A stretch of 44,122 nt of DNA, taken from the NCBI GenBank assembly GCA_900319525.1, contig ONOU01000038.1:1-44122 (forward strand). The letters run 5' to 3'. Position 1 is the first letter of the stretch. Every line of letters begins with the position of its first letter. Under the pieces are notes generated by a model, which saw only the letters and a list, made by a program, of their open reading frames with translations, did not search any database and was not told where the DNA came from. This document shows positions 17,890 to 44,122 of this stretch, one piece after another. The DNA is from an uncultured Prevotellaceae bacterium. Lineage in GTDB: Bacteria > Bacteroidota > Bacteroidia > Bacteroidales > Muribaculaceae. The position numbers and the translations under genes were made by a program.

Positions 17890-19671
17890 TTAGGGGGCGA
17901 GGAGGTGGTCGATGAGGGCGGTGACGTCGGCGATATTGACATCGTCAGTGACGTTGAAGTCGGCGCAGATGGCGCAGCAGCCGTCGGAATCACTAGACAG
18001 CAGATAGTCGATGATGCGGGTGACGTCGGCGATGTTCACACTGCCGTCATGATTGACGTCACCATGCTTGAAGTTATGCTCCTCCTTCATGTACCAGAAA
18101 CTGGCCGTACCGTCGCGGTTGATAATCATCTCGGTGACGGGTTTGCCTAGATAGCCGGCTTTGCCCGTAATTTCGCCGTAGGAGGTCATGTTGAGCACTG
18201 TCGCCGGGGTTGATGTGTCGGTGATGGCGCGCTTGTTACCGTTGGGCCACGTGTCACCGCTCTCGCTGTAGTTAGACAACTTGTTGTCGGCAGGCAGCAG
18301 GGTGATGAGCTGGATCTTATCGTTATTGGGCTTGTTGGCCGACCACTGGCTGGCGCTATAGGTGATGTGGGTGACCAGGATGCCCTGGCCGGGCAGGCAA
18401 CGGTCCCATCCGATGCGCTGACGGTTCTCGAGAATGAAGTACTCGTTCTTGTTGACATCGCTCACGATGCACACGGCTTGATCGGTGCCCTTGATCTTCT
18501 GGTTCCACACGGGCAGCGTGTAGTAGGTATTGGGCGTGGGTTTGATATAGTCCACCCAACCCATGAAAACCTTCTCATAGGCCGAATAGCCAACGGGCAA
18601 ATAGCCATCGTTGCCATAGCATCCCAGACACATGACGTCCCAATTGCCCATACCATAATTGTCGTTGGTGCCCGTGTCATACATGTCGGGCAAACCCAGA
18701 CAGTGGCCAAACTCGTGGGCAAACGTGCCGATGCCGTCGATGGTCTTGCCGTTATCGTTGCTGCCATGCAGCTCGTTGAACACGGCAAAGTGGTTGACAT
18801 AGGGATCGCCGCTGCTGGGACTGAAGGCGCCATCGCCTCCACGGGAATAATACCTGGCGGCATCCAGGGTCCAGTTGCAGGGCCAGATGGTCTCGGGATG
18901 GTACATGCCAGCCTGGGCCTCGCCCACCCCGGCAAAAATCACGATGACCACGTCACAGTAGTAGTCGTTGTCGGTGTCATAGGGGGCGAACGACACACTG
19001 TCCTTAGCTGCCAGCAGACAAGCCTCGGTGACCAGCCAACCGATACCCTTGTCCTTAGTCGTGCCCGAATGACCACCATAGTACTCGCGGTCTTGCGACA
19101 GGCTATAGATGCCGTACACATCAAACACAGGTTTATACAACCCATTGGACTGGTCATGATAGTACTGGGCCACACCCTCGGGTCCAGTAATCATCGACTC
19201 GACAATCTTCTCGCGTGTATTATTGAACTTCTTGTCCTTGAACTCCACCAGGATGACCGGGATGCGGCGCTCGCCCATGGCCGGAACATCGGCCGTGGCA
19301 TTGCTGCCCGTCGCTCCCAGCCTGCCCGCACGGCTGGGCATGGCATAGGACTTGGTCTGCATGGTCATCGCCCCACGCTGGGCACTGATAAAAGCATTCT
19401 CGGCTGCAGTTCGCTGCCCGGCTTCATGAGCCCGCACGGCGGTCAATCCCGTGAGCGACGAGCTGTAGTAGAAATCGCCGTCACTGCCACGGGCCACCGT
19501 CAGGCCGTCGGTCGTCAAGATGGCATTGTTAAAGGCATTGCCCACCGCCTGGAGGCGCAAAGTGGAGCCGTCGCTCTGAGTAAAGGTGTGCCAACCTGGA
19601 CGTGCAGGTACAGCAAGAGCTAATACAGTGAAGCATAGCAACGCTGATAGAGTAAGGAGGTTTCTTTTCAT
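17890..19671 (-). CDS. secreted M6-family metalloprotease with dockerin-like tail
   Basis: A 593-aa secreted zinc protease. A signal peptide (MKRNLLTLSALLCFTVLALA) precedes the VPARPGWHTFTQSDGSTL N-terminal domain. The M6 (immune inhibitor A-like) catalytic site is HEFGHCLGLPD: H319, E320, H323 and D329, followed by Met-turn candidates. The last about 60 residues hold two Asp/Asn-rich calcium-loop repeats (GDVNHDGSVNIADVTRIIDYLL and DFNVTDDVNIADVTALIDHLL) like type I dockerin, with a Cys-Cys pair between. It is a shorter paralogue of the next gene, from its own promoter. Likely a digestive or host-protein-degrading enzyme (inference). Confidence 0.92.
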   Translation of the reverse strand: MKRNLLTLSALLCFTVLALAVPARPGWHTFTQSDGSTLRLQAVGNAFNNAILTTDGLTVARGSDGDFYYSSSLTGLTAVRAHEAGQRTAAENAFISAQRGAMTMQTKSYAMPSRAGRLGATGSNATADVPAMGERRIPVILVEFKDKKFNNTREKIVESMITGPEGVAQYYHDQSNGLYKPVFDVYGIYSLSQDREYYGGHSGTTKDKGIGWLVTEACLLAAKDSVSFAPYDTDNDYYCDVVIVIFAGVGEAQAGMYHPETIWPCNWTLDAARYYSRGGDGAFSPSSGDPYVNHFAVFNELHGSNDNGKTIDGIGTFAHEFGHCLGLPDMYDTGTNDNYGMGNWDVMCLGCYGNDGYLPVGYSAYEKVFMGWVDYIKPTPNTYYTLPVWNQKIKGTDQAVCIVSDVNKNEYFILENRQRIGWDRCLPGQGILVTHITYSASQWSANKPNNDKIQLITLLPADNKLSNYSESGDTWPNGNKRAITDTSTPATVLNMTSYGEITGKAGYLGKPVTEMIINRDGTASFWYMKEEHNFKHGDVNHDGSVNIADVTRIIDYLLSSDSDGCCAICADFNVTDDVNIADVTALIDHLLAP

Positions 19672-24218: not shown

Positions 24219-25547
24219 CTATGTCCCCCATTGACTATTAAGCCATGCCACTTTCTTGTGAAAAGATGGCTTGCCGAATTGGCGAAGTCTCTCTATCGTA
24301 TTATCGCTTGGGTATTGAGGCCAGCGCTTGTGGTCGGCATTGCCTGCTTGCTCAATTTTGGAAACAAACTGGTCCATAAACTCGTCCATCTCGGGATAGA
24401 CCTCTTGATAAAACCGTTTCCAGTGAAATCTTACCCGCTCTTGAAACCGTGGGAATTTTGCAATCTCACTAATCCATCGCGAGCGGCAATAACTTGGAAC
24501 ATTTTCATAAATGAATTCATTAAACCCGTAGGTTTCGCTCCAGCGATAGTAAGAGGAACCGCAATCCCACAGAGGGCCAAATATGAGTTTTGTGCCTCCT
24601 CCTCGCTGCTTGTGGATGTAACAACTTCCCGAGAATGCTTCTGGATTATCCATGATTTCCTGTACGATATAGTAAATTGCTAGTGAGTCGATATCGATGT
24701 ACTGTTCCCACAGCTGACTTTCCTTGTCCTCTACATAGATAGCCGAATCCGTTTCAAGAAGGAAATGGGTAATGTAATCTCGTTGCTCCTCGCTGAGCAG
24801 TTCAGGTGAATGCACGGTTATCCAAAATGGCTGCCCATTGCCTTCAGTGAATATGATATTGTCATGTTGCACGTAGTTCTCAATCTCAAGCAGCCAACCG
24901 CCCGTTACTTTATCAAGTTCTGTCTCATAATCATTTTGCTCGATGACATTTACCCTGTTTTTGGCGACGCGAACGTTCTCTGTCAAGAAGTAGAGGCCGA
25001 TGTACTGACCGTTAAGCGCTACCTCAACGGGTTGCATGTGTGGATTCCAGGCCATACCCATGCGCCGGCCTATCTCAAACGGCAGGGCATCATTCATTTG
25101 CCCCATCCAGCTCAATGCCTGAGCCAATAGTGCCCAGTGGCGACTGGCATGCATACCCAACACTTTGTGCTTTTCGTCAAACTTGAGGCGATAGGACTTC
25201 TTGTCTAGGTTGGTCCATGTTGAATTTCCTCTTCCCCTAATCTGCATACGCAACGGGTGCCTGAAGGATCCAAGCGAATCCACACCATCTATCCCCATGG
25301 GGTCCAGCCACCAGTCGGCATACAAATATTCCTCTTTGCTCACAATGGCCGCGGCACTGTCGGTATTTATAAACAACATCGGCAAGGTACCTGAACAGCC
25401 CTCAACGAATATTGCCGTATCGACAGGCGTAGGAGGTATAGGAGGCTCAGGATTGACAGGACTGTCTCCGCAGGCATTTAATGAGAACAAAACGCAGAGA
25501 AGACTAATGCTTATGAACGATAAAGAAACAAGTTTCTTCACTATCAT
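24219..25547 (-). CDS. CotH-like kinase-fold lipoprotein
   Basis: A 442-aa lipoprotein: signal peptide with lipobox SLNAC (Cys26) and a Pro-rich linker (NPEPPIPPTPVD). The core matches the CotH family, an atypical protein-kinase fold first known from spore coats: RGRGNSTW with KKSYRLKF, the NRVNVIEQND region, the catalytic-type segment IVQEIMDNPEAFSGSCYIHK and GPLWDCGSSY where others have WDFD. Bacteroidota carry many CotH lipoproteins, often with polysaccharide loci; substrates are mostly unknown. The gene stands alone next to the IS982 remnant, and its lower GC content suggests a younger acquisition (impression, not measured). Confidence 0.85.
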   Translation of the reverse strand: MIVKKLVSLSFISISLLCVLFSLNACGDSPVNPEPPIPPTPVDTAIFVEGCSGTLPMLFINTDSAAAIVSKEEYLYADWWLDPMGIDGVDSLGSFRHPLRMQIRGRGNSTWTNLDKKSYRLKFDEKHKVLGMHASRHWALLAQALSWMGQMNDALPFEIGRRMGMAWNPHMQPVEVALNGQYIGLYFLTENVRVAKNRVNVIEQNDYETELDKVTGGWLLEIENYVQHDNIIFTEGNGQPFWITVHSPELLSEEQRDYITHFLLETDSAIYVEDKESQLWEQYIDIDSLAIYYIVQEIMDNPEAFSGSCYIHKQRGGGTKLIFGPLWDCGSSYYRWSETYGFNEFIYENVPSYCRSRWISEIAKFPRFQERVRFHWKRFYQEVYPEMDEFMDQFVSKIEQAGNADHKRWPQYPSDNTIERLRQFGKPSFHKKVAWLNSQWGT

Positions 25548-31594: not shown

Positions 31595-33280
31595 CTAGTA
31601 GTGGAAACTGCTGCCTCCCAGGAATTCTCGCAGCAAGCTCGTGCTGGGAATGTCTTTCTCGTCCAGAGGCTCGAAGTAATTCAAGAATTTGATCAGACGT
31701 GAAGCCTCGGCATACTCCTCCACGCTGGAGGGCACTTGCTGCAATATGGGCAACGCATGGTTCTTCATCGCCGACAATTCAAACAGCAGTGACGAGTTGA
31801 ACATGGCGTCAGCATTCTCGCTGAAGGGCATGATCCACTTGTTCTCGCCACGTCGCACACTGGGCCATCGCTTGATGGTGTCCAGAGCGCTGGCGCCACG
31901 ATACTTGTGGTCACGCACGATGCGTCGCAACAAGCGGTTATCAAAGGTTCCAATCCAGTTGTGGTCATCGATGTTGAGCGTGGTCAACGCCGACACGAAC
32001 AGGCGGAACTTTTGATTATCGGGAATGTTGCGTGTGAGTTCGGGATTGAGTCCATGGATGCCTTCCATGAGCAGGATGTCGCCATCCTCGAGCTTGAGCG
32101 TGTTGCCCAGGTACTCGCGCTCTCCCTTCTTGAAGTTATAGGTGGGCATGGGCACTTCCTTGCCTGCCAGCAGATCGGTCACATCCTTGTTGAACTGATC
32201 CAAGTCAAGGGCAAAGAGCGACTCGTAGTCATAGTCGCCCGTCTCGTCACGCGGCGTGCGGTCACGGTTCACGAAATAGTTGTCGAGCTCAATGACCTTG
32301 GGCACGATATAGTTGGTCATCAGCTGGATGGCCAAGCGCTTAGACGACGTGGTCTTGCCGCTGGACGACGGTCCCGCGATGAGCACCACGCGTGCCCCAC
32401 CCTCGTGGTAGCGGCGCGTAATCTCGTCAGCAATCTGGATAAAGTACTTGTTGTGCAGGGCTTCCACAACATTGATGAGCAAGGGGGCATGTCCTCCCCT
32501 GATGGCACGGTTGAGCTCGCCCACGTCACCCAATCTAATGACCTTGTTGAAGTTGATGTGGTCGGTAAACGCCTGGAACAGCTTGGGCTGCGGCTCCCAG
32601 TCGGCCACGCGGGTGATATCGTTGCGGTCTGGTCCCAAGAGGAGCATGCCGTTCTCGTAGGGGACCAAGTCAAACACCTGAAGCATGCCCGTTGAGGGCA
32701 CCAGCGGGCCGTAGAAACTGTCGATGATATCATCGAGCCTGTAGTAAACGGTGTAGAGCTGGTTGATGCCCTCGAGCAGACGCACCTTGTCCCTGAGCCC
32801 CTGCTTGCGGAACATCTCGATGACATCGCTCGTCAAGCGCTCCCGGCGCCTGAATGGCAGGTCGGCATCGATGATCTCACACATGCGCTGCTTGAGCTGG
32901 GCGATGACCTCGGGGGTGAGGAAGTTCTCCTCATGCTTGATCTGGCAATAATGGCCGTTGCTGATGCTGTGCTGGATGCACAGGCGCTTGCCGGGATACA
33001 GGTCGTTGAGTGCCTTGTACAGCACCATGCACAACGAGCGCGTGTAAACCCTGTAGCCTGCATTGGGGATGATGTCAAGAAACTCGATGTGCTTGGGGGC
33101 GAAAACGGGATAATACAGATCCTCGACCTTGTTGTTGACAAGCACGCACACAGCGTCACCCTTGAGGCCGATGCGCCCCTTGATAGTATCATACAAATCG
33201 ATGAGCGCTTCTCCGCCTTCAATGTTCAGGTACTCGTTCGTGTTCTTGCAGAACACCTTGAGTTCATCGTATTTTCTCAT
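31595..33280 (-). CDS. nucleoside kinase with N-terminal TGS/ThrRS-like region
   Basis: A 561-aa protein widely kept in Bacteroidota. The first about 60 residues look like a TGS/ubiquitin-like fold (DLYDTIKGRIGLKGDAVCVLVNNKVEDL), then a region related to the second domain of threonyl-tRNA synthetase (IQHSISNGHYCQIKHEENFLTPEVIAQLKQRM), then a uridine-kinase core: Walker A GPSSSGKTTSSKR, ELDNYFVNRDRTPRDETGDYD, LMEGIHGLNPEL. Length is normal. It is the upstream partner of the shorter paralogue. The N-terminal region may sense tRNA or act in control (inference). Confidence 0.92.
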   Translation of the reverse strand: MRKYDELKVFCKNTNEYLNIEGGEALIDLYDTIKGRIGLKGDAVCVLVNNKVEDLYYPVFAPKHIEFLDIIPNAGYRVYTRSLCMVLYKALNDLYPGKRLCIQHSISNGHYCQIKHEENFLTPEVIAQLKQRMCEIIDADLPFRRRERLTSDVIEMFRKQGLRDKVRLLEGINQLYTVYYRLDDIIDSFYGPLVPSTGMLQVFDLVPYENGMLLLGPDRNDITRVADWEPQPKLFQAFTDHINFNKVIRLGDVGELNRAIRGGHAPLLINVVEALHNKYFIQIADEITRRYHEGGARVVLIAGPSSSGKTTSSKRLAIQLMTNYIVPKVIELDNYFVNRDRTPRDETGDYDYESLFALDLDQFNKDVTDLLAGKEVPMPTYNFKKGEREYLGNTLKLEDGDILLMEGIHGLNPELTRNIPDNQKFRLFVSALTTLNIDDHNWIGTFDNRLLRRIVRDHKYRGASALDTIKRWPSVRRGENKWIMPFSENADAMFNSSLLFELSAMKNHALPILQQVPSSVEEYAEASRLIKFLNYFEPLDEKDIPSTSLLREFLGGSSFHY

Positions 33281-33311
33281 TTTGTGCCAGTGCTTACGGG
33301 TTTATAAGTTG

Positions 33312-33319
33312 CAAAAGTA
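33312..33319 (-). promoter_or_regulatory. -7 box (TACTTTTG) of the kinase genes
   Basis: Exact match on the minus strand, 31 bases before the ATG of the 561-aa kinase. Confidence 0.55.
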
Positions 33320-33424
33320 GTAAAAATTCCCGAAAAACAGTAAATTTTGCAGCACAAACATCACATAAAGTGGCAAAAATCCGTTTTTTAACGCTTTCAG
33401 GACAATGGTTTGCTGTGATTTTTC

Positions 33425-33432
33425 TACCTTTG
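33425..33432 (+). promoter_or_regulatory. -7 box (TACCTTTG) of the MBL-fold gene
   Basis: Exact match, 33 bases before the ATG at 33466. Confidence 0.55.
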
Positions 33433-33465
33433 GAGCGCAAGTTAAATCGATTATATCATAAACTA

Positions 33466-34221
33466 ATGAAAACGAAATTATTGATTATGGCAATGATGAT
33501 TGTTGGTGCCATGTGCGGATGCACGGCACAGGAGCAAGAAGCCGGGTGCGACGTGTTCAAGACCCCGAGCGGCATTACCGTGAAGATGTATTGCATCAAG
33601 CACGGCAGCGTGAGGATGCAGGTGGGCGACAAGTGGATCTATGTGGATCCTGTCACCACGGCTGTCAAGCCCGAGACCGACTACTCTAGCCTCCCCAAGG
33701 CCGATTACATCCTGGTGACCCACGAGCACTTTGACCACCTGGACTCGGTAGCTATCAACCAATTGAGCAAGCCAGGCACTATGCTCATCACCAACGCCCG
33801 CTGCCACGACATGCTGGGCGGCAAGGGCCAGGTGATGAAGAACGGCGAGGTTCTCCAGTTACCTGACGAGGTATTCACTACACTGGAGGCTGTGCCGGCC
33901 TACAACAACTCGCCCGACAAACTGCAGTTCCATCCCAAGGGCCGCGACAACGGCTTTGTGCTCAACCTCAACGGCATGCGCGTCTATATCGCCGGCGACA
34001 CCGAGGACATCCCCGAGATGGCCGAGATCAAGGACATCGACGTGGCCTTCCTGCCGTGCAACCTGCCCTTCACGATGACTCCCGAGCAGTGTGCCCACGC
34101 CGCCACGATGATCAAGCCCACGGTGCTTTTCCCCTACCACTACGGGCAAACCGACATCCAGCAAGTAGTCAAGCTGCTTGACGGCAGCGGCATCGACGTG
34201 AGAATCAGGGACTACCAGTAA
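33466..34221 (+). CDS. secreted metallo-beta-lactamase-fold hydrolase
   Basis: A 251-aa protein of the metallo-beta-lactamase superfamily, UlaG-like branch. Signal peptide MKTKLLIMAMMIVGAMCGC..., possibly a lipoprotein (Cys near 19). Metal ligands: THEHFDH (HxHxDH) for the first site, NARCHDML with a His for the second position, and AGDTEDI with the bridging Asp; FPYHYGQ gives the last His. The longer frame, starting 32 codons earlier, runs through the promoter and lacks the signal peptide at its front. The substrate is unknown; sequence relatives include lactonases and RNA-unrelated hydrolases. A strong terminator follows. Confidence 0.85.
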   Translation: MKTKLLIMAMMIVGAMCGCTAQEQEAGCDVFKTPSGITVKMYCIKHGSVRMQVGDKWIYVDPVTTAVKPETDYSSLPKADYILVTHEHFDHLDSVAINQLSKPGTMLITNARCHDMLGGKGQVMKNGEVLQLPDEVFTTLEAVPAYNNSPDKLQFHPKGRDNGFVLNLNGMRVYIAGDTEDIPEMAEIKDIDVAFLPCNLPFTMTPEQCAHAATMIKPTVLFPYHYGQTDIQQVVKLLDGSGIDVRIRDYQ

Positions 34222-34226
34222 CTGTT

Positions 34227-34253
34227 CTAGATAGTCTAGATAATCTAGAAAGG
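34227..34253. repeat. 9-bp tandem repeat (CTAGATAAT type, 3 units)
   Basis: CTAGATAGT, CTAGATAAT and CTAGAAAGG follow the MBL-gene stop codon. Confidence 0.5.
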
Positions 34254-34265
34254 GAGAGTAAAAAC

Positions 34266-34310
34266 ACTGCCGCCGTGTCGAGATGAATCGACGCGGCGGC
34301 AGTAGTTTTA
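34266..34310 (+). terminator. terminator of the MBL-fold gene
   Basis: A 15-bp stem (34266-34280 with 34289-34303, one T-G pair) with the loop AGATGAAT, followed by AGTTTTATT. Confidence 0.8.
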
Positions 34311-34335
34311 TTGGTCAGTTGTCAGGAAGGCCTAA

Positions 34336-34363
34336 ACCTGATACCTGACACCTGAAGCCTGAA
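34336..34363. repeat. 7-bp tandem repeat array (ACCTGAA, 4 units)
   Basis: ACCTGAT, ACCTGAC, ACCTGAA, GCCTGAA end at the base before the susD stop codon. Confidence 0.7.
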
Positions 34364-36076
34364 TTACCAGCCAGGATTCTGACTTGTGGCACCCTTGCTC
34401 AGCGTGATCTGGTTGCTGGGGATGGGGCACAGGTAATACTTCTTGTCGAAGGTGCGCAGTGTGCTCACGGGGATCACATAGCCATCTGCATCCAGGTTGA
34501 AGGTCTCGTCCAGGTCGGCCACACCAGCCAGGAAGGCACCGCGGTTGATGTTGGGATGAGCCTGTGAGTCGAGGAGGTCAAGCTTGTGCCAGCGAACGAG
34601 GTCCCAATAACGGTACCAGTTGTCGGCCATGAGCTCGCAGCGACGCGTACGGCGGATTTCCCACAACAGGTCGCTAACACCCATATTGTTGGCGGGGTCG
34701 GCAGCAGGTGTCAAGCTCATAGCGGGCAGACCGGCGCGGGCCTGTAGCTTGTTGACACTGGCATCCAGATCAGTCTGGTTGATGGTGCCCAACTCGGCCT
34801 TAGCCTCGGCGTAGTTCAGATAGATGACTGCCAGCCAATAGATGGGAGCGTCGGTATAGTTCTTGCCGGTGTTGATGCGGTAATCCACTTCCATAGCCGT
34901 GTTGTCATACTTGGCGATGTTGTAGCCGGTAGATGACGTCATGAGCATGGAGTTGGAACGCACCCAACCATGACCCTTGAAGCACAGATACGGATCGAGC
35001 AGCACGCTCAGGCGCTTGTCGCGGTTGGCAAGCATGCCCTGAATGCTATAAGCATTGTTTGTGGGATCGAGCACGGGATGATCATCGGTGTTATAGGCAG
35101 TGGTTGCCAGGGGCTTGCCATCCAGGAAGAGGAAGGCATCGACAGCGTCCTTGCTGATACCGCGCTGCTGTGACGACGATGCGGTATAGTCGGCAGTCGA
35201 GTGCATGAGCTGATCCTTCACGTAGTTGCGGAAGAAGATAACCTCACTGCTCTTGCTCAGGTCGAGCGAGTTATAGACCTCGCCATAGTTGGCGGTAAGG
35301 CTGTACTTGCCCGAGTTCATCAGCTGCTGCGAGGCATCAACGCACTCATTGAGGAACTTCTGGGCACGGGTAGCATCGGCAGCCTTGCCATTGTCCTCAA
35401 CAGTGCGGTACTTGCAATAGGTACCCTCAAACAGGCAGATGTCGCTCTTCATGGCCAGGGCCATATCCTTGCTCCAGGAATTCTTGCCGCCGGCACCCAG
35501 GTTCTGAACAGCATAGTTCAGATCCTCGAGCACGAAGTCCATGACCACGTCACGGTCGGTGCGGGGACCATAGACAACATCGCTCTGAGCCTCGGGATCA
35601 AGGATGACCTCATCGATCATGTTGACATCACCGTACATGCGCACGAGCTGATAGTACTGCCAGGCGCGATTCAAGCGGCCAACAGCTATATAATAGCTCT
35701 TCTCGCCCTCAGCGAGGGTCGAGCTCTGCAAGCCGGTCAACATATAGTTGCAGCGGCGAATCTCGGTATAAGGCGTGCTCCAGTAGGTCGAGGTGCCGGG
35801 AACCGTGGTGAACATCCAGTTATCAAAGCTGGGATTCACCTGGTCGTCGCTCAAACTCTTGAAATAGAACCAGCCAGCGCCACCACCTGTTCCATATCCA
35901 GTATAGTTCTCATACAGGACATTGCTATAGCTGGCGACCTGATTGGCATTGCTCCAGAACTCAGGTCCGAGCTCAAACTTGGTGCGTTCGCTCTTGGTGA
36001 GCATGTCGTCACAAGACGACAGCGAGATGACAGCAGCACCCAGTCCACACAGTATAATTGATTTCAATAATTTCAT
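34364..36076 (-). CDS. SusD/RagB-family nutrient-binding lipoprotein
   Basis: A 570-aa surface lipoprotein that forms the lid of a SusC channel and captures glycans or peptides. Lipobox SLSSC with Cys22 after the start used here; the longer frame starts 24 codons earlier in the heptad array and lacks a signal sequence at its front. Typical helices (SYSNVLYENYTGYG, WAYYQL-type RAWQYYQLVRMYGDV) and the C-terminal pattern LLWEIRRTRRCELMADNWYRYWDLVRW, ending in YYLCPIPSNQITLS...QNPGW, are SusD hallmarks. It follows the susC-type gene by 113 bases on the same strand, and the spacer holds two opposed heptad arrays. Substrate unknown; no glycoside hydrolase lies beside it. Confidence 0.95.
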   Translation of the reverse strand: MKLLKSIILCGLGAAVISLSSCDDMLTKSERTKFELGPEFWSNANQVASYSNVLYENYTGYGTGGGAGWFYFKSLSDDQVNPSFDNWMFTTVPGTSTYWSTPYTEIRRCNYMLTGLQSSTLAEGEKSYYIAVGRLNRAWQYYQLVRMYGDVNMIDEVILDPEAQSDVVYGPRTDRDVVMDFVLEDLNYAVQNLGAGGKNSWSKDMALAMKSDICLFEGTYCKYRTVEDNGKAADATRAQKFLNECVDASQQLMNSGKYSLTANYGEVYNSLDLSKSSEVIFFRNYVKDQLMHSTADYTASSSQQRGISKDAVDAFLFLDGKPLATTAYNTDDHPVLDPTNNAYSIQGMLANRDKRLSVLLDPYLCFKGHGWVRSNSMLMTSSTGYNIAKYDNTAMEVDYRINTGKNYTDAPIYWLAVIYLNYAEAKAELGTINQTDLDASVNKLQARAGLPAMSLTPAADPANNMGVSDLLWEIRRTRRCELMADNWYRYWDLVRWHKLDLLDSQAHPNINRGAFLAGVADLDETFNLDADGYVIPVSTLRTFDKKYYLCPIPSNQITLSKGATSQNPGW

Positions 36077-36080
36077 ATCT

Positions 36081-36115
36081 TTTTTAGTTTTTAGTTTTAA
36101 GTTTTTAGTTTTAAG
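36081..36115. repeat. 7-bp tandem repeat array in the susC-susD spacer, T-rich arm (5 units)
   Basis: TTTTTAG, TTTTTAG, TTTTAAG, TTTTTAG, TTTTAAG, ending 4 bases before the susD start codon region on the minus strand. AG recurs every 7 bases. Read on the minus strand it would sit in the leader of susD. Confidence 0.85.
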
Positions 36116-36158
36116 TATGGTTTGTATCGCCTGTAACTGTATCGTCATTTGGTAATAT

Positions 36159-36193
36159 TACTTACAACTTAAAACTTACAACTTAAAACTCAG
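36159..36193. repeat. 7-bp tandem repeat array in the susC-susD spacer, A-rich arm (5 units)
   Basis: TACTTAC, AACTTAA, AACTTAC, AACTTAA, AACTCAG, running into the susC stop codon. It is largely complementary to the array at 36081-36115, so the spacer can fold back on itself. Confidence 0.85.
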
Positions 36194-39100
36194 TTTAACC
36201 TTATGTTGCTGATGCCCTGGCCCTGGGCGTTGATGCGCTTGGCATCGATACCATACTTCTTTACGAGCATGTCCTTCACGCTGGCGGCACGGCCGTTAGC
36301 GAGAGTGATGTTGCGGTCCATGGGACCGTCCTTGGAAGCATAACCATTGATGACGCAGGTAGCCTCGGGGTGGCTCTTCATGTAAGCGGCAATGCGCTCC
36401 ACATTGGGCTGCTGGTCGGCATAAACGGCCATCGAGTTAATGGGGAAGTGAACCAGGATGGTCATGTACTGCAATGACTTGTCAATCATACCGCTCTTGC
36501 TGTTCTGGCAAGCGGCAAGGTCCTTCTGGAGCTGGCTGTTGCGGTTGTTGGCAGCGTTGAGCTGGTTCTGCAGTTCGGCGATGCGGCTGTTGTAAGCGTT
36601 CTCGGCATTAGCGAGCTGGGCGCGCAGGTCATTGATCTGAGCGTTCAAGGCGCTGTTGTCGCCAGTAACGGCTACGGCAGCACTGCGGTTGGTACCGAAG
36701 GTCACTTGCAGACCTACAGACCAGGTGCGGTTGATGGGATAGGTGCGGCCCCAAGTACCGTAGCCCAGAGAGCCCTGTCCGGCGTTCATCTCGGGATCGA
36801 TGGGGAGGTCACCGCTGCCCTTGTGGAGCAGACACAGGTTGTTCACACTACCGTAAACACGCAGTTTCTCGATGAAGGCCTTACGGGTCAGGTTCTCGGG
36901 CAGGGTGTAACCCAGCGTGATGTTCTTGAGGCGCAGGTAGCTCATGTCAACGAGGTACTTGGTCTGGGGATAGTAGTTGTGGCAGCCGCCCTCACCCGAG
37001 AGGCCCACAACATTGCCGGCATACTCGTTGCCGGGGAACAGGCACGGGAAGTCGTTGTCCTCACTGATGTTGACAACGCCATTCTCGGGATCATAGATAT
37101 TGTACTTGGTCTGGTTGGCAAAAATAGCCAAGTCGGCCGAACGCATCATCGGGAATACAAAGGCTGACTGGGTCCACATTTCACGCTTGCCCACACCCTG
37201 GAAGAACACGTCCAGGTCAAAGCCCTTGAAGTTACCACCAACGTGGAAGCTGTACTCATAGCGGGGCATCATGTTACCGATAACCTTGAGGTCACCATGA
37301 TCCTCCTGAGTGCCCTTGCCACCGTCGATCACACCATTGTTGTCCAGGTCCTTGTACTTGATGTCACCAGGGCCAAAGACGAAGGTCTGGGTCTGGATGC
37401 CGGTCTGATCGGCAACGCCGGGAGCATAGTTCCATGAACCGTCGGCGTTCTTGCCGTTGAAGTCACGCTCGGTGAAGTAGCGGTCGGTCTCAAAGCCCCA
37501 GATGTCACCCCAGGTCATGCCCTCATAGGCATAGGCACTGTTGCAAGGATAGCCGATCAGGTGAGAGTCGTTGTTCCACTTGGTCACCTTGGTCTTAGCG
37601 TCACCGATGCTGGCGCTGAAGTAGGCGCCGAAGTCCTTGCTGAACTGCTTGCGCAGGTCCAGGGTGGCTTCCCAACCGCGTGTGCGCAGCTCACCATTGT
37701 TGGTCACAGGAGCAGCGGCACCCACAGCGGGAGGCAGTGCGGTACCGGGACCGAGCATGTCGCTGGTCGTGCGCTGGTACCAGTCAAAGCCCATCGTGAG
37801 CACGTCACCAAACAGGCCCAGGTCGATACCTGCGTCCATGGTGGTGATGCGCTCCCAGGTCAGTGAGGAGTTCACCCAGCTGGGGAGACCCAGCTCGGTC
37901 ACCTTGGCACCATTCTCGTTCAGCCAGTAAATGTTGCCCTGGCTGATGGGGCTGATGAGCGACTGGAACTGGTTCTCGCCGACGGCCTCGTTACCGATGG
38001 TACCGTAAGAGAAACGCAGCTTACCATTGTCCACGATGTGGCGCAGGCGGTCCCAATACTTCTCCTGGGTGAAGCGGTAGCCCACCGATCCCGAGGGGAA
38101 GAATGCCCAATGGTCATTCACGGGGAAGCTCGACGAGCCGTCGTAACGGCCATTCAACTCGAGCAGGTAGATGCCCTTGTAGTCATAGTTGATACGGCCA
38201 AAGTAGCCGGCAGTAGCCTTGTCATAGGTGCTGCTGTTGATGTTCCACTTGGTCTGGTCGCCATAGGTCAGCGCCATCTCGGGATAAGCCTCGCTATAGA
38301 GCTGGGGCCTGTAGGCATAGAAGTAGTCGCTGGAGTAGTTGTCGCCATTGACACCCACCATGATGTTGAAGTTGTGGGCATCATTGAAGCTCTTGTTCCA
38401 GTTCAGGGTTGCGTTGGCAGCCCACTTGTTGCTCTTGCTGTTGTCGCGCCAGGCGTTGGTGTTGCCGTCGTTGACAATCCACTGCGGGGTGACACCGCTC
38501 CAGTTGTAGCCGTAAACGGTGTGGTCACTCGAACCGCTGTTCATGTTACCGATCTCATAGGTGAAGTCGGCATTCAAGGTCAAGTCCTTGGTGATGTGCA
38601 CGGTGGTGAAGGCGGTCATGCTCAGGCGATCCATGGTCACGTTCTTGCGGGCGGCCTGCTTCTGCATGGCGATCACGCGGAAGTCGAGCTGCTCACCCGT
38701 GGTGGGATCAGCAATCGTGCCGCTGGGGATGAAGAACGAGCCCCAGCGCCAGATGTACTGGTACATGTTGTTCCAGGTATCGGCACGCGAGAAGTGGCGG
38801 CGCGAGAAGTTGATGCGGGTACCAACGGTCAACCAGTCGGTCAAGTCGGTCGAGATGTTGGCAGCAGCGTTGTAGCGCTTACGCATAGCGGGATTCCACT
38901 TCATGTTATCCTCCTTGTAGTTGTAGCCAAAGGACAGATAGTAGGTGGTGCGGTTGCTGGCACCACGCACCGACACGTTGTGGCCCTGAGAGGGAGCGGC
39001 ATGGTTGTACCAGATGTTCTGGATGTCATAGTCGGCATAGTACATGGGCTGGCTGCCGATGAAGCGGTAGTCACCCACGTCACCGTCGCTCACCCAGGGG

Positions 39101-40065
39101 CGCATCACGCCATAACCGATCTTCTTGCCGCCATTCTGCTTCTGCCATGCCTCGGCATAGGGCAGCAGCTGGTCGAAGTACATACCGAAGAGCTCGACAG
39201 CGTCCGAGCCCTCACGCTTCTTGGCCATGATGGCCGACTTCAACTGGGTGGGCACATCAGGATAGTCGGGCAGGTAGGTGGGATCGTCCCAACCGAAGTT
39301 GTTAGAGTAGGTCACCGAGGCATGCTCGCCCTTCTGGCCACTCTTGGTGGTAATCAGCAGCACACCAAAGGCGGCACGGGTACCGTAGATCGACGACGAA
39401 GCGGCATCCTTCAGTACCGATACCGAGGCTATATCGTTGCCGTTGAGCAGCTGCAGTCCGTCCATGTCGCTCACGACACCGTCGATGACGATCATGGGCG
39501 AGGTGTTCTGGTCGTTGCTCAGCGTGCCGACGCCACGGATGCGCATCGTGGGATTGCCATCGATGTCACCGCTGGCGTTGATAATGCTCAGGCCAGGAAC
39601 GGCGCCCTGCAATGCGCGGGACACATCCTGCTCAGGACGTGAATTGAAGGTCTTGTCAACATCTACAGTCGATACGGCACCGGTGAGGTTCACCTTCTTC
39701 TGTGTGCCGTAGCCCACTACAACGACCTCGTCCAGGAGGGCCTTATCCTCGGCCATGACAACGTTCATGCCCGCAGCAGCGCGGGTGGTCACCGTCTTGT
39801 AGCCGATAAACGAAATCTGGAGCTTGGCATTGGTGCCTGCTCGCAACGAGAAGTTACCATTCACATCGGTCGATGTGCCACGGGTCGTTCCCATCTCGAC
39901 AATGCTGGCGCCGATGACGGGTTCTCCCTGCTCATCGACAACGCGGCCTGTCACAATGCTGGTGGCGGCGCTTTCCGTCACCTGAGGCGCGGGTGCTGCC
40001 TGTGCCTGGTACCCAGTACCGCACAGCAACGCCATAGCGCCTAAAAGAGCTAAATGTCTTTTCAT
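36190..40065 (-). CDS. SusC/RagA-type TonB-dependent transporter fused to a coiled coil and OmpA domain
   Basis: A 1291-aa outer-membrane importer. Signal peptide MKRHLALLGAMALLCGTGYQ..., carboxypeptidase-D-like regulatory domain (VTGRVVDEQGEPVIGASIVE, about 32-110), TonB box region DEVVVVGYGTQKK, plug (SRALQGAVPGLSI, IYGTRAAFGVLLITTKSG) and a 22-strand barrel ending in WSVGLQVTFG (about residue 1122). It does not stop there: a coiled coil (about 1135-1190, INDLRAQLANAENAYNSRIAELQ) and an OmpA-type domain follow (about 1195-1291, VHFPINSMAVYADQ, INGYASKDG, NGRAASVKDMLVKKYGI). The OmpA domain has the Asp and Arg expected to hold peptidoglycan diaminopimelate. The start downstream of a long upstream extension is chosen for its signal peptide. 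Cotranscribed with susD. Confidence 0.93.
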   Translation of the reverse strand: MKRHLALLGAMALLCGTGYQAQAAPAPQVTESAATSIVTGRVVDEQGEPVIGASIVEMGTTRGTSTDVNGNFSLRAGTNAKLQISFIGYKTVTTRAAAGMNVVMAEDKALLDEVVVVGYGTQKKVNLTGAVSTVDVDKTFNSRPEQDVSRALQGAVPGLSIINASGDIDGNPTMRIRGVGTLSNDQNTSPMIVIDGVVSDMDGLQLLNGNDIASVSVLKDAASSSIYGTRAAFGVLLITTKSGQKGEHASVTYSNNFGWDDPTYLPDYPDVPTQLKSAIMAKKREGSDAVELFGMYFDQLLPYAEAWQKQNGGKKIGYGVMRPWVSDGDVGDYRFIGSQPMYYADYDIQNIWYNHAAPSQGHNVSVRGASNRTTYYLSFGYNYKEDNMKWNPAMRKRYNAAANISTDLTDWLTVGTRINFSRRHFSRADTWNNMYQYIWRWGSFFIPSGTIADPTTGEQLDFRVIAMQKQAARKNVTMDRLSMTAFTTVHITKDLTLNADFTYEIGNMNSGSSDHTVYGYNWSGVTPQWIVNDGNTNAWRDNSKSNKWAANATLNWNKSFNDAHNFNIMVGVNGDNYSSDYFYAYRPQLYSEAYPEMALTYGDQTKWNINSSTYDKATAGYFGRINYDYKGIYLLELNGRYDGSSSFPVNDHWAFFPSGSVGYRFTQEKYWDRLRHIVDNGKLRFSYGTIGNEAVGENQFQSLISPISQGNIYWLNENGAKVTELGLPSWVNSSLTWERITTMDAGIDLGLFGDVLTMGFDWYQRTTSDMLGPGTALPPAVGAAAPVTNNGELRTRGWEATLDLRKQFSKDFGAYFSASIGDAKTKVTKWNNDSHLIGYPCNSAYAYEGMTWGDIWGFETDRYFTERDFNGKNADGSWNYAPGVADQTGIQTQTFVFGPGDIKYKDLDNNGVIDGGKGTQEDHGDLKVIGNMMPRYEYSFHVGGNFKGFDLDVFFQGVGKREMWTQSAFVFPMMRSADLAIFANQTKYNIYDPENGVVNISEDNDFPCLFPGNEYAGNVVGLSGEGGCHNYYPQTKYLVDMSYLRLKNITLGYTLPENLTRKAFIEKLRVYGSVNNLCLLHKGSGDLPIDPEMNAGQGSLGYGTWGRTYPINRTWSVGLQVTFGTNRSAAVAVTGDNSALNAQINDLRAQLANAENAYNSRIAELQNQLNAANNRNSQLQKDLAACQNSKSGMIDKSLQYMTILVHFPINSMAVYADQQPNVERIAAYMKSHPEATCVINGYASKDGPMDRNITLANGRAASVKDMLVKKYGIDAKRINAQGQGISNIRLN

Positions 40066-40513
40066 AAGCACGTTTAAATTTGTTAATATTAAATTGTTAA
40101 TAATTCTGTTGTTTTTCTCAACTTTTGCCACTTCATCGTCCATGCGTTGACAACACATCTTGTTATCTTTTTTTAACAAGGTGCAAAATTCTACATTTTT
40201 TTTGAACCTACCAAATTATCGGTGTCTTTTTACAAACACAAACGTTAAAGAACCAAAAAATCGGTTTAAGACACGTAAAATTTTGGGGTCAGACTACCGA
40301 TTATCGTCATTAAATGCGATTTTTTGCCTCAAAATTTTGGCCGCGTGAATTTTTATTTGCAAATTTGCCTTTCAATTCCGCACGTTTACCGCCTGGCGGT
40401 GCTTGCGGCATGGATTCTAATACCGAATTTTGAACCACCAGATATGAAAGAATAAAAGAGACAATAAATAAAGTCAGTAAATTTTATTTTTTTAAACAAA
40501 ACAATTAGTGCGT
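40066..40513. other. divergent control region between two susC-type genes
   Basis: 448 AT-rich bases without a gene. Seen: a hairpin CTTGTTA-N8-TAACAAG (40159-40180) in the leader of the left gene; a -7-like TAGAATTTTG on the minus strand (40192-40183); a perfect palindrome ATTTGCAAAT (40355-40364) and ACCGCC-T-GGCGGT (40388-40400) upstream of the right gene. No exact TAnnTTTG box is seen for the right gene, so an extracytoplasmic sigma factor or activator may be used (inference). Confidence 0.6.
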
Positions 40514-43500
40514 ATGAAAAAACAATTAGCACTGTTGGCCGCACTGGCAATCGCAAGTGGAGTGCCCGTAGGAATGACGTCGAGTCAGACCACGACGGGT
40601 TTCACTGCTGTTGCCCAGACCAACAAAGTTACTGGCGTCATACGTGACGCCCAAGGTGAGCCCCTCATCGGCGCGACCATCAAGGTCAAGGGTACCAACC
40701 GCGGTACCGCTACCGATGTCGATGGCAAGTATTCAATCAACGCCAATCGTGGCGACGTGCTCGTCGTCTCCTACGTGGGCAGCAAGCCCATGGAGGTGAC
40801 CGTGGGCAGTGGCGCGATGGACATCACCATGCAGGACAACGACCAGGTCCTCGACGAGGTTGTTGTTACCGCACTCGGTATCCGCAAGGACAAGAAGTCG
40901 CTGGGTTATGCCGTCGATGACTTGAAGGCCGAGGAGCTGATGCGCAACAAGAGCGCCAACGCGATCAACTCGCTGTCGGGTAAGATTGCCGGTGTGAACA
41001 TCACCCAGTCGTCGGGTGCCGCCGGTTCGGGCGCACACATCGTGCTCCGTGGCGGTACTTCGGTCAGTGAGAATTATGACAACCAGCCGTTGTTCGTTGT
41101 GGATGGTGTCATCTATGACAACTCGGCAGGTGTTGTGGGTAACTCGGCATTTGACGGTATGATGAACAGCGCCACCACGTCTTCCAACCGTGTGATGGAT
41201 ATCAACCCCGAGGATATCGACAATATGTCGGTACTGAAAGGCCCGGCTGCATCGGCACTGTATGGTAGCCGTGCTGCCAATGGTGTTGTGATCATTACCA
41301 CTAAGAAGGGTAAAGAAGGCCACACTGAGGTCAGCTTCTCTGGTAAGATGATTGCCTCGACCGTTGCAAATCTGCCCAAGACCCAGAATGAGTACACCCG
41401 CGGTTACATGACTGACATGTACGAGAAGGATGCTCAAGGTAAGAGCGTGTGGACTGGTTTGGACATCAAGGACGACAGTTACAACTCATGGGGTCCTAAG
41501 GTACCTGGCCTGCAAACCTACGACAACCTGAAGAACTTCTTCGACACAGGTATCATCTGGGACACCAACTTGAGCGTTAGCGGCGGTACCAAGAACAACA
41601 ACTTCTTCCTGAGCGGTTCATTCTACGATCAGGACGGTATTGTTCCCACCACCGGCTACACCAAGACGACCTTCCGCTTCAACGGTGAGCAGAAGGTGGG
41701 CCGCTTCACCTTCGGCGCCAATGCTGCCTACAGTGACGCCCGCACCACCAAGACGCTGACTGGTGCCGCTCTGTACGGTTCCAGTGGTACTGGTGCCTTG
41801 TATGCTGCCTATAACTGGACTCCCAGCGATGACATGCGTCACTACCTGAACGAGGACGGAACGCGCTATCGCATGTTCGGTGACCAGTTCCAGCCCTGGG
41901 ACGAGCGCGACAACCCCTACTGGATTGTCAACAAGAACAAGATGACCGATGATACCGAGCGTTTCACCGGCAACTTCAACGTGAAGTGGGATCTGTTCGA
42001 CTGGTGGTGGCTGAGTTACCGCATGGGTGTCGATAGCTATACGACCCAGAGCCACAATACAATCGCTCCCGGTGGCGCCATCAAGCAGATCTGGCAGAAG
42101 GGTATGTTGAGTGACAACATGTACAAGTATCGCTACTTGAGCAACAACCTGATGTCGAACTGGGGCAAACAGTTCGGTGACTTCAACGTCAACTTGATGT
42201 TGGGTGGTGCTACCGAGTACACCAAGACCCGCCGTGACTATGAGTCGGCTTGGAACTTCGCCGTGCCTGAATTCTATAGCTACAACAATGCCAGCGATGC
42301 TGACAAGAAGTTTAGCCACAGTACGAGTCGCAAGCGTCTGGCTTCACTCTTCGGTGAGTTCCGCATCGACTGGCGCAACGCCATCTTCCTGACCGTTACT
42401 GGCCGTAACGATTGGGATTCGACCCTTCCCAAGGAGCACTGGAGCTACTTCTATCCCAGTGTGAGTGGCGCTATCGCCTTTACCGAACTCTTCCGTGAGA
42501 GCCTGCCCGACTGGTTCTCCTTCGGTAAGATCCGTGCCAGCTGGGCTGAGGTAGGTAAGGGTACCAGTCCCTATGAGACAGGTACAACCTTGTGGCCAGT
42601 AAGCACTTTCCTGGATGGTCTGATGGGTCTGGGTAACAGCTGGGTTCGCGGTAACCCCTATTTGAAGCCTGAGACCACCCGTTCAACCGAGGTTGGTCTG
42701 GAACTGCGCTTTATCCAGAACCGCTTGAAATTTGACATTGCTTACTATACCAACAACTCATACGACCTGATTCTGTCACCGCGTGGCCCGCAGTCAACCG
42801 GTTACATCTTTACCTCCTACAATGCAGGTAACGTTTACAACAAGGGTCTTGAGATCAGCCTGAGTGGTACCCCCATCCAGCATGAGAACTTCATCTGGGA
42901 AACCGGTATCAACGTCTATGGCAACCGTGGCACAATCGACAATCTGTATGCTGGTATGGACATTATGTACGTGACCGATGTACAGTATGCTGGTGCTAAG
43001 GCTGCAACCTTCAACGGTAGCAACTTCATGGGTATCTCTGGCACCAAGTGGAACCGTAACAGCGAGGGTAAACTTATCCTTGACAAGAACGGCTTCCCCA
43101 CCGAGGATAAGAAGCAAGATGCATTTGAAGTCGGTGACCGTGAGCCCAAGTTCCAGGGTGGTTGGAACAACACCTTCACCTTCTTCAAGAACTGGACCTT
43201 CAACATGTTGTGGGAGTTCCGTTATGGCGGTGACGTCTTCAACGGTACCAAGTATGCCATGTCGATGAGCGGTGTAAGCGCACTCTCTGGCGACTGGCGC
43301 AACGATCCCCTCACCATCGAGGGTGTATTCCAGACGGGTACAGATGATAATGGCAAGCCCATCTATGAGGCTGTATCCAACACTTGGAAAGCTGATCAGA
43401 ACTACATCTTTAATGGTGTCGAGACTAGTGGTTCTACCATTATCCAGAACTACTACACTGGTGCTTATAATTATGAGACCCGCAACTGGATCACTAACGT

Positions 43501-44122
43501 GAAGAGCCTGCGTCTGCGCACCATCTCTTTGACCTATGATGTTCCCCGTAGCTTCCTGGCCAAGACCAAGTACATCAAGCGTGCTGCCATCACCGCATCG
43601 GCCAGCAACCTGTTGCTGTTCACCAACTATGATGGTGATCCCGAGGTGGCTGCTGCAGGTGCTGGTGTCGGTGGTTCGTCGTCAGTCGGCTTTGACTACT
43701 GCGGCGTTCCCGCTACCCGCCAGTATGCATTGGGTATCAACCTGACCTTCGGCACTGACGATGCTGCTCCCGCGCGCGTCAACAACGTTGAGCTGGAGAA
43801 CCTGAATGGCCAGATCAACGACCTGCGCAACCAGCTCGCCAACGCTCAGAACGCCAGCAACGCCCGCATTGCACAGCTCGAGAACGACCTCGCTGCTGCC
43901 AACAAGGCTCTGGCTAACTGCCGCAACGACCTGAATGCTGCCAAGAACGCCGCTCCCAAGGTGGTTGACAACAGCAAGCAGTACATGAACGTACTCGTTC
44001 ACTTCCCCGTGAACAAGACCGCTATCACCGCCGATCAGCGCGCCAACGTTGAGCGCGTCGCCGCTTACCTGAAGAGCCATCCCGAGGCCACCTGCACCAT
44101 CAAGGGTTACGCTTCGCCCGAG
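40514..44122 (+). CDS. second SusC-type TonB-dependent transporter with coiled coil and OmpA domain (3' end cut by window)
   Basis: Open for 1203 codons to the last base of the window, no stop reached. Signal region MKKQLALLAALAIASGVPVG, carboxypeptidase-D-like domain (VTGVIRDAQGEPLIGATIKVKG), TonB box and plug start LDEVVVTALGIRKDKK, plug (SLSGKIAGVNITQSSG, LYGSRAANGVVIITTKKGK), then the barrel, whose end is YALGINLTFG (about 1075). After this come a coiled coil (VELENLNGQINDLRNQLANA, then ARIAQLENDLAAANKAL) and an OmpA domain (MNVLVHFPVNKTAITADQ, LKSHPEATCTIKGYASPE) that runs off the edge. The tail is clearly related to that of the divergent gene, the barrels much less so. Start ATG follows an AT-rich leader. 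A susD partner is expected to the right. Confidence 0.92.
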   Translation, partial: MKKQLALLAALAIASGVPVGMTSSQTTTGFTAVAQTNKVTGVIRDAQGEPLIGATIKVKGTNRGTATDVDGKYSINANRGDVLVVSYVGSKPMEVTVGSGAMDITMQDNDQVLDEVVVTALGIRKDKKSLGYAVDDLKAEELMRNKSANAINSLSGKIAGVNITQSSGAAGSGAHIVLRGGTSVSENYDNQPLFVVDGVIYDNSAGVVGNSAFDGMMNSATTSSNRVMDINPEDIDNMSVLKGPAASALYGSRAANGVVIITTKKGKEGHTEVSFSGKMIASTVANLPKTQNEYTRGYMTDMYEKDAQGKSVWTGLDIKDDSYNSWGPKVPGLQTYDNLKNFFDTGIIWDTNLSVSGGTKNNNFFLSGSFYDQDGIVPTTGYTKTTFRFNGEQKVGRFTFGANAAYSDARTTKTLTGAALYGSSGTGALYAAYNWTPSDDMRHYLNEDGTRYRMFGDQFQPWDERDNPYWIVNKNKMTDDTERFTGNFNVKWDLFDWWWLSYRMGVDSYTTQSHNTIAPGGAIKQIWQKGMLSDNMYKYRYLSNNLMSNWGKQFGDFNVNLMLGGATEYTKTRRDYESAWNFAVPEFYSYNNASDADKKFSHSTSRKRLASLFGEFRIDWRNAIFLTVTGRNDWDSTLPKEHWSYFYPSVSGAIAFTELFRESLPDWFSFGKIRASWAEVGKGTSPYETGTTLWPVSTFLDGLMGLGNSWVRGNPYLKPETTRSTEVGLELRFIQNRLKFDIAYYTNNSYDLILSPRGPQSTGYIFTSYNAGNVYNKGLEISLSGTPIQHENFIWETGINVYGNRGTIDNLYAGMDIMYVTDVQYAGAKAATFNGSNFMGISGTKWNRNSEGKLILDKNGFPTEDKKQDAFEVGDREPKFQGGWNNTFTFFKNWTFNMLWEFRYGGDVFNGTKYAMSMSGVSALSGDWRNDPLTIEGVFQTGTDDNGKPIYEAVSNTWKADQNYIFNGVETSGSTIIQNYYTGAYNYETRNWITNVKSLRLRTISLTYDVPRSFLAKTKYIKRAAITASASNLLLFTNYDGDPEVAAAGAGVGGSSSVGFDYCGVPATRQYALGINLTFGTDDAAPARVNNVELENLNGQINDLRNQLANAQNASNARIAQLENDLAAANKALANCRNDLNAAKNAAPKVVDNSKQYMNVLVHFPVNKTAITADQRANVERVAAYLKSHPEATCTIKGYASPE

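Follow-up and report, generated by a model that had tools for sequence, protein, structure and literature searches.

SusC-type transporters with an OmpA-type C-terminal tail, a putative cell wall anchor, in one group of ruminant-gut Bacteroidales

Transporters of the SusC/RagA family (TIGR04056) consist of a PF13715 extension, a plug, and a full barrel with the TIGR04057 signature, are encoded beside a SusD partner, and usually, though not by definition, end at the last barrel strand. The OmpA porins of the genus considered here are proteins of ~420 residues composed of a short N-terminal barrel, a helix, and an OmpA domain. Another OmpA-fold domain of the Bacteroidota forms the C-terminus of PorE and anchors the type IX secretion machine to the wall; it is not known to share a chain with a transport barrel. 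Here, we analyzed a window of 44,122 bases, the complete contig C51 of a draft genome (3.28 Mb in 54 contigs), in which two divergent genes, susC-A and susC-B, each encode a SusC barrel that runs on in frame into an OmpA-type tail. The SusC-OmpA fusion is real. The reading that we favor, at a probability of roughly 0.6, is that SusC-SusD importers of four types (A-D) are anchored to the cell wall via this OmpA-derived tail.

Both window proteins matched TIGR04056 over essentially its whole length (cut-off 368 bits): susC-A covered positions 3-981 of 981 with residues 38-1123 (800 bits) and susC-B positions 2-981 of 981 with residues 38-1079 (662 bits). The scores of the TIGR04057 signature were 53.6 and 58.8, respectively (cut-off 46.2). 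Behind the barrel of susC-A, residues 1207-1284 matched PF00691 with 43.1 bits (cut-off 27.2), at about profile positions 2-80 of 98. The susC-B protein can be read for 1203 residues before the contig ends at 44122; its OmpA domain is cut there, and PF00691 was not called by Pfam. Instead of ending at the last barrel strand, the proteins carry a tail of ~170 residues behind a Phe-Gly, and N-terminally they have a SusC plug and barrel instead of the short barrel of an OmpA porin. The initial annotation had proposed that both proteins pass from a complete barrel into a coiled coil and an OmpA-type domain, which is what we found, the helix being a prediction; OmpA domains are present in both window genes but complete in neither. 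The parts of the two genes and the SusD partner gene are as follows.

36190..40065, minus strand: susC-A, SusC/RagA transporter with a C-terminal OmpA-type tail (1291 residues, start MKRHL; TIGR04056, PF13715, PF07715, PF00593, PF00691).
36697..40065, minus strand: portion of susC-A up to the barrel end at ...LQVTF (residues 1-1123), comprising the signal peptide region, N-terminal extension, plug, and barrel; the TIGR04056 match finishes here, and A orthologs without the fusion stop at the same Phe.
36193..36696, minus strand: susC-A tail (linker, helix, OmpA-like domain), residues 1124-1291, an in-frame continuation.
36487..36648, minus strand: predicted long helix or coiled coil of susC-A containing one Cys, approximately residues 1140-1193 (modelled as a single helix in the homologous D tail).
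36211..36447, minus strand: OmpA-like domain of susC-A without its last strand (PF00691 match).
36203..36204, minus strand: junction of a ~53-nucleotide out-of-frame gap in susC-A (DNA alignment with the A ortholog of genome G024).
40066..40513, no strand: intergenic region between the divergent susC-A and susC-B (divergent pair also in relatives).
40514..44122, plus strand: susC-B, second SusC with an OmpA-type tail, its gene end beyond the contig (TIGR04056 positions 2-981 of 981).
40514..43750, plus strand: plug and barrel of susC-B up to ...INLTF (residues 1-1079), where the TIGR04056 match finishes and B orthologs without the fusion stop.
43751..44122, plus strand: partial susC-B tail with linker, helix (~43802-43951), and start of the OmpA-like domain (from ~43976), recognized by its likeness to the susC-A tail.
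34364..36076, minus strand: susD-A, lipoprotein partner of 570 residues from MKLLKS, in an open reading frame (ORF) that reaches 36148 (PF07980, PF14322; 90% identical to the 570-residue G024 ortholog).

The tails had been described as more alike than the barrels, and the alignments bear this out, with 67 of 122 tail positions identical (55%; 64 of 107 in the local alignment) compared to 305 of 994 (31%) in plug and barrel. By sequence search, the susC-B tail is 59% identical to the susC-A tail (query residues 13-120), and the latter is 63% identical to a complete tail on contig C16 of the same genome. The expected SusD partner was confirmed for susC-A, whose barrel gene adjoins the SusD-family lipoprotein gene susD-A at 34364 (PF07980). 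The corresponding position for susC-B would fall past the contig end; a SusD-size gene lies next to susC-B in five relatives that were read (G018, G052, G041, G024, and G025), and the G018 copy matches SusD-like models.

When the C16 tail was used as a query, matches at an E value of 0.001 or better were obtained in 60 of the 61 sampled genomes of the genus. In 27 of them, a count taken from the match listing, the best matches (E below 1e-60) fall in SusC-size frames, mostly of ~1,100-1,360 residues and shorter at contig ends or in broken frames, in many cases with several such frames per genome on a single contig. Among the matches listed for the remaining genomes, the frames have ~300-450 residues and are mostly OmpA porins. 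A uridine-kinase-like protein encoded beside the locus is at least 82% identical to that of the window in exactly the same 27 genomes (as two pieces in G017 and as a 198-residue fragment in G026), and the tail therefore marks one group inside the genus. This marker kinase is at most 73% identical in 30 other genomes of the genus and was not found in 4, and tailed SusC occurs in none of these 34. The tailed clade is part of one genus of ruminant-gut Bacteroidales, placed in the Muribaculaceae by several record titles.

Seventy-two loci were named, with the best 80 of 132 relatives kept. The tail end lies in an open frame in 70 of the 72; of the two exceptions, L085 is cut by a contig end and L110 is fused but ends in NRVSLCE, outside the C-terminal motif filter. 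The loci come from records of uncultured Muribaculaceae, Prevotellaceae, Bacteroidales, or Porphyromonadaceae, the hosts being goat, sheep, roe deer, and water buffalo where record titles name one; RUG labels presumably stand for rumen genomes. All but one of 85 sequences could be typed as A-D, the untyped one being a 154-residue fragment without the junction. All four types were seen in 3 of 36 assemblies and one to three types in the others, owing to the selection of best loci, contig ends, or real absence.

Searches with a profile spanning the junction found no tailed SusC outside the genus, among the matches listed, in the family (198 genomes, 30 genera), nor in the order (E 1e-20; 393 genomes, 207 genera) or the phylum (E 1e-12; 395 genomes, 171 genera), with up to 13 best candidates scored per genome for the family and up to 6 for the order and phylum; the query resembles the present tail, so that fusions that arose independently with another kind of tail could escape detection. 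In the phylum search, SusC matches outside the genus cover the barrel part alone (profile ~1-82) and porin-size matches the tail part alone. No title or abstract opening describing a SusC-OmpA fusion was found in the literature, which is weak as a sign of absence since subscription journals were mostly uncovered. To judge from these searches, and only as far as they go, this is a group-specific, undescribed fusion of known parts.

The barrels of the four types have separate histories. Each type is nearer to untailed orthologs (best 65-73% identical) than to the other types. The untailed orthologs are 68% (another genus) and 66-67% (same genus) identical for A, 73% (same genus) and 58-69% (other genera) for B, 70-72% for C, and 61% at full length or 65% over a partial frame for D. 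The untailed A-B pair is also divergent in G099:C12, G080:C29, G165:C23, and G151:C223 and lies on the same strand in G119. Phe is the last residue in 36 of 39 unfused SusC proteins (32 orthologs and 7 further ones from the window's genome), and the other 3 end in Phe-Asn; the tailed proteins read Phe-Gly-linker behind the last barrel strand, the presence of Phe-Gly being partly by construction, as the junction was located by searching for it. In a barrel tree (58 rows, quick method), for which the program warns of long branches between groups, A, B, C, and D each unite tailed and untailed orthologs with support of at least 97, and the tailed A barrels form two lineages, each beside different untailed genes. 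Because A-D group separately and the A barrels are split in two, the tail, as judged from this tree, sits on at least five barrel lineages.

The tails, in contrast to the barrels, have a common origin in the tail tree, which was computed for 75 sequences (36 of the 84 typed SusC tails plus the tails of 19 porins from the genus and 20 from the family) and rooted at the midpoint. All 36 SusC tails form one clade (100/98), and so do the SusC tails together with 13 of the 19 genus porins (100/98), the remaining porins falling outside. The simplest history would be a single capture from the genus's own OmpA-porin line, followed by passage between susC genes through either tail copying or barrel exchange above the tail. 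A fusion predating the A-D split, with later loss, was rejected because the barrels diverged far earlier and cluster with orthologs of other genera that have no tail, and the SusC tails join the porins of the genus to the exclusion of those of the family. Separate porin captures by each susC gene are not favored either, the SusC tails being one clade. Exchange appears to have continued, because locus L087 has an A barrel with a tail that groups among the B/C/D tails.

Tails of one type share 84-92% of their amino acids between genomes compared to 70-77% of fourfold degenerate sites, and they are thus under purifying selection. For types A, B, and D, the tails are better conserved than the barrel ends, and within the tail, conservation is higher in the OmpA domain than in the other half. 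The AlphaFold2 model of the D tail (mean predicted local distance difference test score, pLDDT, 80.1; predicted template modelling score 0.51) consists of a single 55-residue helix (residues 18-72, pLDDT ~90) followed by an OmpA fold, in line with the domain assignment made at the outset. The top matches of this model in the Protein Data Bank (PDB) are the Acinetobacter baumannii OmpA domain (AbOmpA, 3td3), OprF (5u1h), AbOmpA 3td5 and 3td4, and 9uu2, with PorE (6top) at rank 12; 3td5 and 3td4 are AbOmpA with a peptidoglycan peptide or diaminopimelate. A sequence search of the PDB also placed 3td3 first (E ~1e-15 and 1e-14).

Based on the OmpA fold and the donor porin, we consider peptidoglycan anchoring of the SusC-SusD complex to be the most likely role of the tail. 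From general barrel topology, the C-terminus of the SusC barrel would face the periplasm; the tail helix would then bridge part of the gap between outer membrane and wall, and the OmpA domain would hold peptidoglycan, as is thought for the donor porin. The transporter would thereby be fixed laterally and would add to the links between outer membrane and wall. Speculatively, an anchored barrel might take the pull of TonB without being dragged or dragging the membrane, and the single Cys of the tail might cross-link the tails of a SusC dimer. TonB force can open a transporter plug, force gating being described for BtuB and FhuA (PMC5413942), and a review presents the TonB pulling model with ExbD fixed to peptidoglycan (PMC11658791). 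A wider picture is possible but tentative, and we would not bet on it as a whole: one OmpA tail, captured once and passed from susC to susC over at least five barrel lineages, would provide wall-fixed barrels that TonB pulls on, importers that double as ties between outer membrane and wall, and barrels that can be exchanged above a constant anchor. The evolutionary part of the case is strong, and anchoring is a reasonable hypothesis for the function.

Several observations weigh against wall anchoring. Asp271 and Arg286 of A. baumannii OmpA are described as contacting diaminopimelate (PMC6572160, whose residue numbers we follow). In the alignment to 3td3, the GHTD motif corresponds to GYAS, so that Asp271 is replaced by Ser, and Arg286 is matched by Arg; Ser occupies the Asp271 position in 83 of 84 tails, the remaining one having no GYA string, and the Arg286 equivalent is kept in all 82 tails (of 84) that could be scored. 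A lack of diaminopimelate-binding residues had been named beforehand as fatal to the idea, and it applies in half, since the Arg is retained and the Asp is lost, with GYAS and Arg also being the pattern in 39 of 39 porins from the best-matching loci. The related structure 9uu2 has GYAD at this motif. An acidic residue two places after the Ser (PEG, KDG) could conceivably stand in for Asp271, which is speculation. Other difficulties are that the type C tail is less conserved than its barrel end (0.864 vs 0.932); that the full-length AlphaFold2 model had a mean pLDDT of 30.6 and was not used for the geometry of barrel and tail; that neither window tail is complete; and that three of the four visible tails of G036 (loci L287 and L288) are shortened, one of them merely at the very end. 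The locus can also be absent: G009 (94% complete) and G056 (57%) have porins of the donor clade (L048 and L047, respectively) and neither a tailed SusC nor the kinase, which may reflect loss of the whole locus or incomplete assembly. Finally, 12 further SusC matches over the cut-off in the window's genome have no OmpA domain, and SusC function is therefore generally independent of the tail.

Exactly one Cys lies between the barrel and the OmpA domain in all 84 typed tails. Its distance to the first OmpA strand motif is 22 residues in 54 tails, 15 residues (one heptad later) in 23, and 24-26 residues in 7; the spacing of 15 is found in 23 of 24 A tails and that of 22 in most others. This single Cys and its spacing, together with the confidently predicted 55-residue helix and the replacement of Asp271, would suit a module for oligomerization or scaffolding, in which SusC chains, or different SusC types, would be paired in the periplasm through the helix and its Cys, with little or no binding to the wall. 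We regard this as unlikely, though as the strongest of the competing explanations: the OmpA domain, which is the better conserved half of the tail, would be unnecessary for such pairing, and related helix-plus-OmpA tails occur in porins.

Exchange between genes was assessed by comparing tail pairs from the same and from different genomes (36 tests with 5000 permutations). The B and C tails of one genome (n=10) are more alike than those of different genomes in amino acids (0.807 vs 0.770), nucleotides (0.832 vs 0.799), and fourfold sites (0.756 vs 0.672), each difference being reached in 0 of 5000 permutations. For the last 350 barrel residues of B and C (n=7), there was no effect in amino acids (0.279 vs 0.279) and a weak one at fourfold sites (0.603 vs 0.579; 2.7%). 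The longest identical run of B and C tails measures 176 nucleotides within a genome (median 53.5) and at most 75 between genomes (median 47). This clear excess points to gene conversion between the B and C tails. The A-B tails gave 0.629 vs 0.623 in amino acids (1.3% of permutations), 0.710 vs 0.706 in nucleotides (2.1%), and 0.627 vs 0.618 at fourfold sites (21%), the B-D tails 0.9% (amino acids) and 63% (fourfold), the C-D tails 1.9% (amino acids), 0.8% (nucleotides), and 6.8% (fourfold), and the A-D tails 5.6% (amino acids), among which single values of ~1-2% are not to be trusted, as the A-C barrel control reached 1.5% (nucleotides) in these 36 tests. No same-genome excess was detected for A-C tails in the permutation tests. 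Recent conversion between the two window tails, tried as an explanation of their likeness, thus found little support (no fourfold excess, 21%). The initial annotation had suggested that the tail was copied or is under shared selection: passage between genes in general is indicated by the single clade, and for the window pair the likeness seems to reflect constraint more than recent copying.

The divergent window tails form a 154-nucleotide inverted repeat (36335-36488 and 43962-44115; 75% complementary), and inversion might be possible where tails resemble each other more closely. No near-perfect inverted repeat was found in window positions 33000-44122, which contain, besides the tails, three short imperfect pairs (82-86%); locus L050 has one imperfect pair of 18 nucleotides. 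Site-specific inversion of SusC, of the shufflon type, was rejected in view of the lack of suitable repeats in this part of the window.

The same material bears on the idea that the tail is kept chiefly as shared DNA, over which barrels are exchanged by homologous recombination in a cassette variation of surface-exposed transporters. It would agree with the sharing of A-type tails by two A barrel lineages that unfused orthologs separate, with the L087 barrel and its foreign tail, with B-C conversion and its 176-nucleotide tract in one genome, and with the inverted repeat of the window tails. It does not account for purifying selection on the protein sequence of the tail, it lacks a near-perfect inverted repeat in the stretch searched, and the window shares its divergent A-B order with the five relatives read in which both genes are present. 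We therefore rate it as rather improbable, a step below pairing through the helix.

Damaged copies were found in the window's genome and in relatives. The susC-A protein ends in GQGISN-IRLN-stop, whereas its G024 ortholog (95% identical) runs on to ...SWNRVSICEIIVK and has the C-terminus ...GQGISEMFDELSWNRVSICEIIVK. At the DNA level, susC-A has a gap of ~53 nucleotides relative to this ortholog, which is not a multiple of three, and the frame is lost after GQGISN with a stop four codons on. The part lost corresponds to the last domain strand in the D tail model (residues 182-188). The gap may be either a true deletion or an assembly error. A third tailed gene, of type D, lies on contig C16 of the window's genome (L018:2637-6327) with a complete tail and a frame split into two overlapping ORFs. 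A fourth gene, of type C, may sit in the gap between C51 and C16, because the SusD and lipoprotein genes found with C in relatives lie at the end of C16. The typed set gives no truncation rates, as only sequences with an intact tail end pass the C-terminal filter (the two window genes were included manually).

The shortened tails of susC-A and G036 and the broken frame of D would fit a decaying by-product, that is, a captured tail that was spread by recombination and has no present function. Shortening could be either real decay or assembly error in similar repeats. We find decay hard to credit: tailed copies are present in 27 of 27 genomes with a marker kinase of at least 82% identity, conservation is far higher at the amino acid level than at silent sites, and the truncations sit in draft assemblies, which are error-prone at similar repeats. 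A frame error or assembly join that fused ompA to each susC, to which only the contig end inside a tail would point, was rejected outright, as tailed SusC frames occur in 27 of 61 genomes of the genus and the same fusion stands directly behind the barrel end in many separate assemblies.

Two further genes adjoin the locus in the window.

33370..34221, plus strand: metallo-beta-lactamase-fold hydrolase (PF12706), adjoining the locus in the window and in most relatives read.
31595..33280, minus strand: uridine-kinase-like protein (PF00485), the marker of the tailed clade, adjoining the locus in the window.

Of the six relatives read, five (G018, G052, G041, G024, and G037) have the kinase and hydrolase genes beside SusD-A/SusC-A, followed by the divergent SusC-B and its SusD and then by SusC-C, which is accompanied by a SusD of its own and a lipoprotein; G037 lacks B, and no C was seen in G041. 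The sixth, G025, has A, B, and C together and the kinase ~20 kb away. In G018, G052, G041, and G024, where both are on one contig, 14-32 kb separate SusC-D, with its own SusD and lipoprotein, from the closest of the other tailed susC genes. All four SusD proteins of G018 match SusD-like models, and one of its lipoproteins has a sub-cut-off match to DUF4397, the other none. Elsewhere, the window encodes two adjacent peptidases of the M6 family (immune inhibitor A type; 17890-19671 and 19916-22783), each with a C-terminal type I dockerin domain, and a CotH kinase-family protein (24219-25547; PF08757).

OmpA, which is said to tie the outer membrane to the wall in Flavobacterium johnsoniae, and a SUS complex are reported to be the two most abundant components of the outer membrane in that species (PMC12611786); the merger of these two kinds of component into one protein is therefore notable. 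Here, a periplasmic module has reached several old paralogs, always attached directly behind the terminal barrel Phe, and the presence of the same SusC genes with and without the tail in one genus offers a natural comparison for the effects of wall anchoring on force, mobility, vesicle loss, and packing. Compared to described SusC/RagA transporters with their SusD, the tailed form has the same extension, plug, signature, full barrel, and adjacent SusD gene and differs in the ~170 residues behind the last strand. The OmpA porin of the genus resembles it in the tail, which is 57% identical in the window's genome and shares GYAS and Arg, and differs in its short N-terminal part, the lack of a SusC plug, and the position of the SusC tails in a clade of their own. 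The AbOmpA domain (3td3, 3td4, and 3td5) has the same fold and Arg286; in the SusC tails, Asp271 is Ser, and a long helix precedes the domain. The likeness to the C-terminal domain of PorE (6top) from the type IX secretion system is that both are OmpA-fold domains of Bacteroidota.

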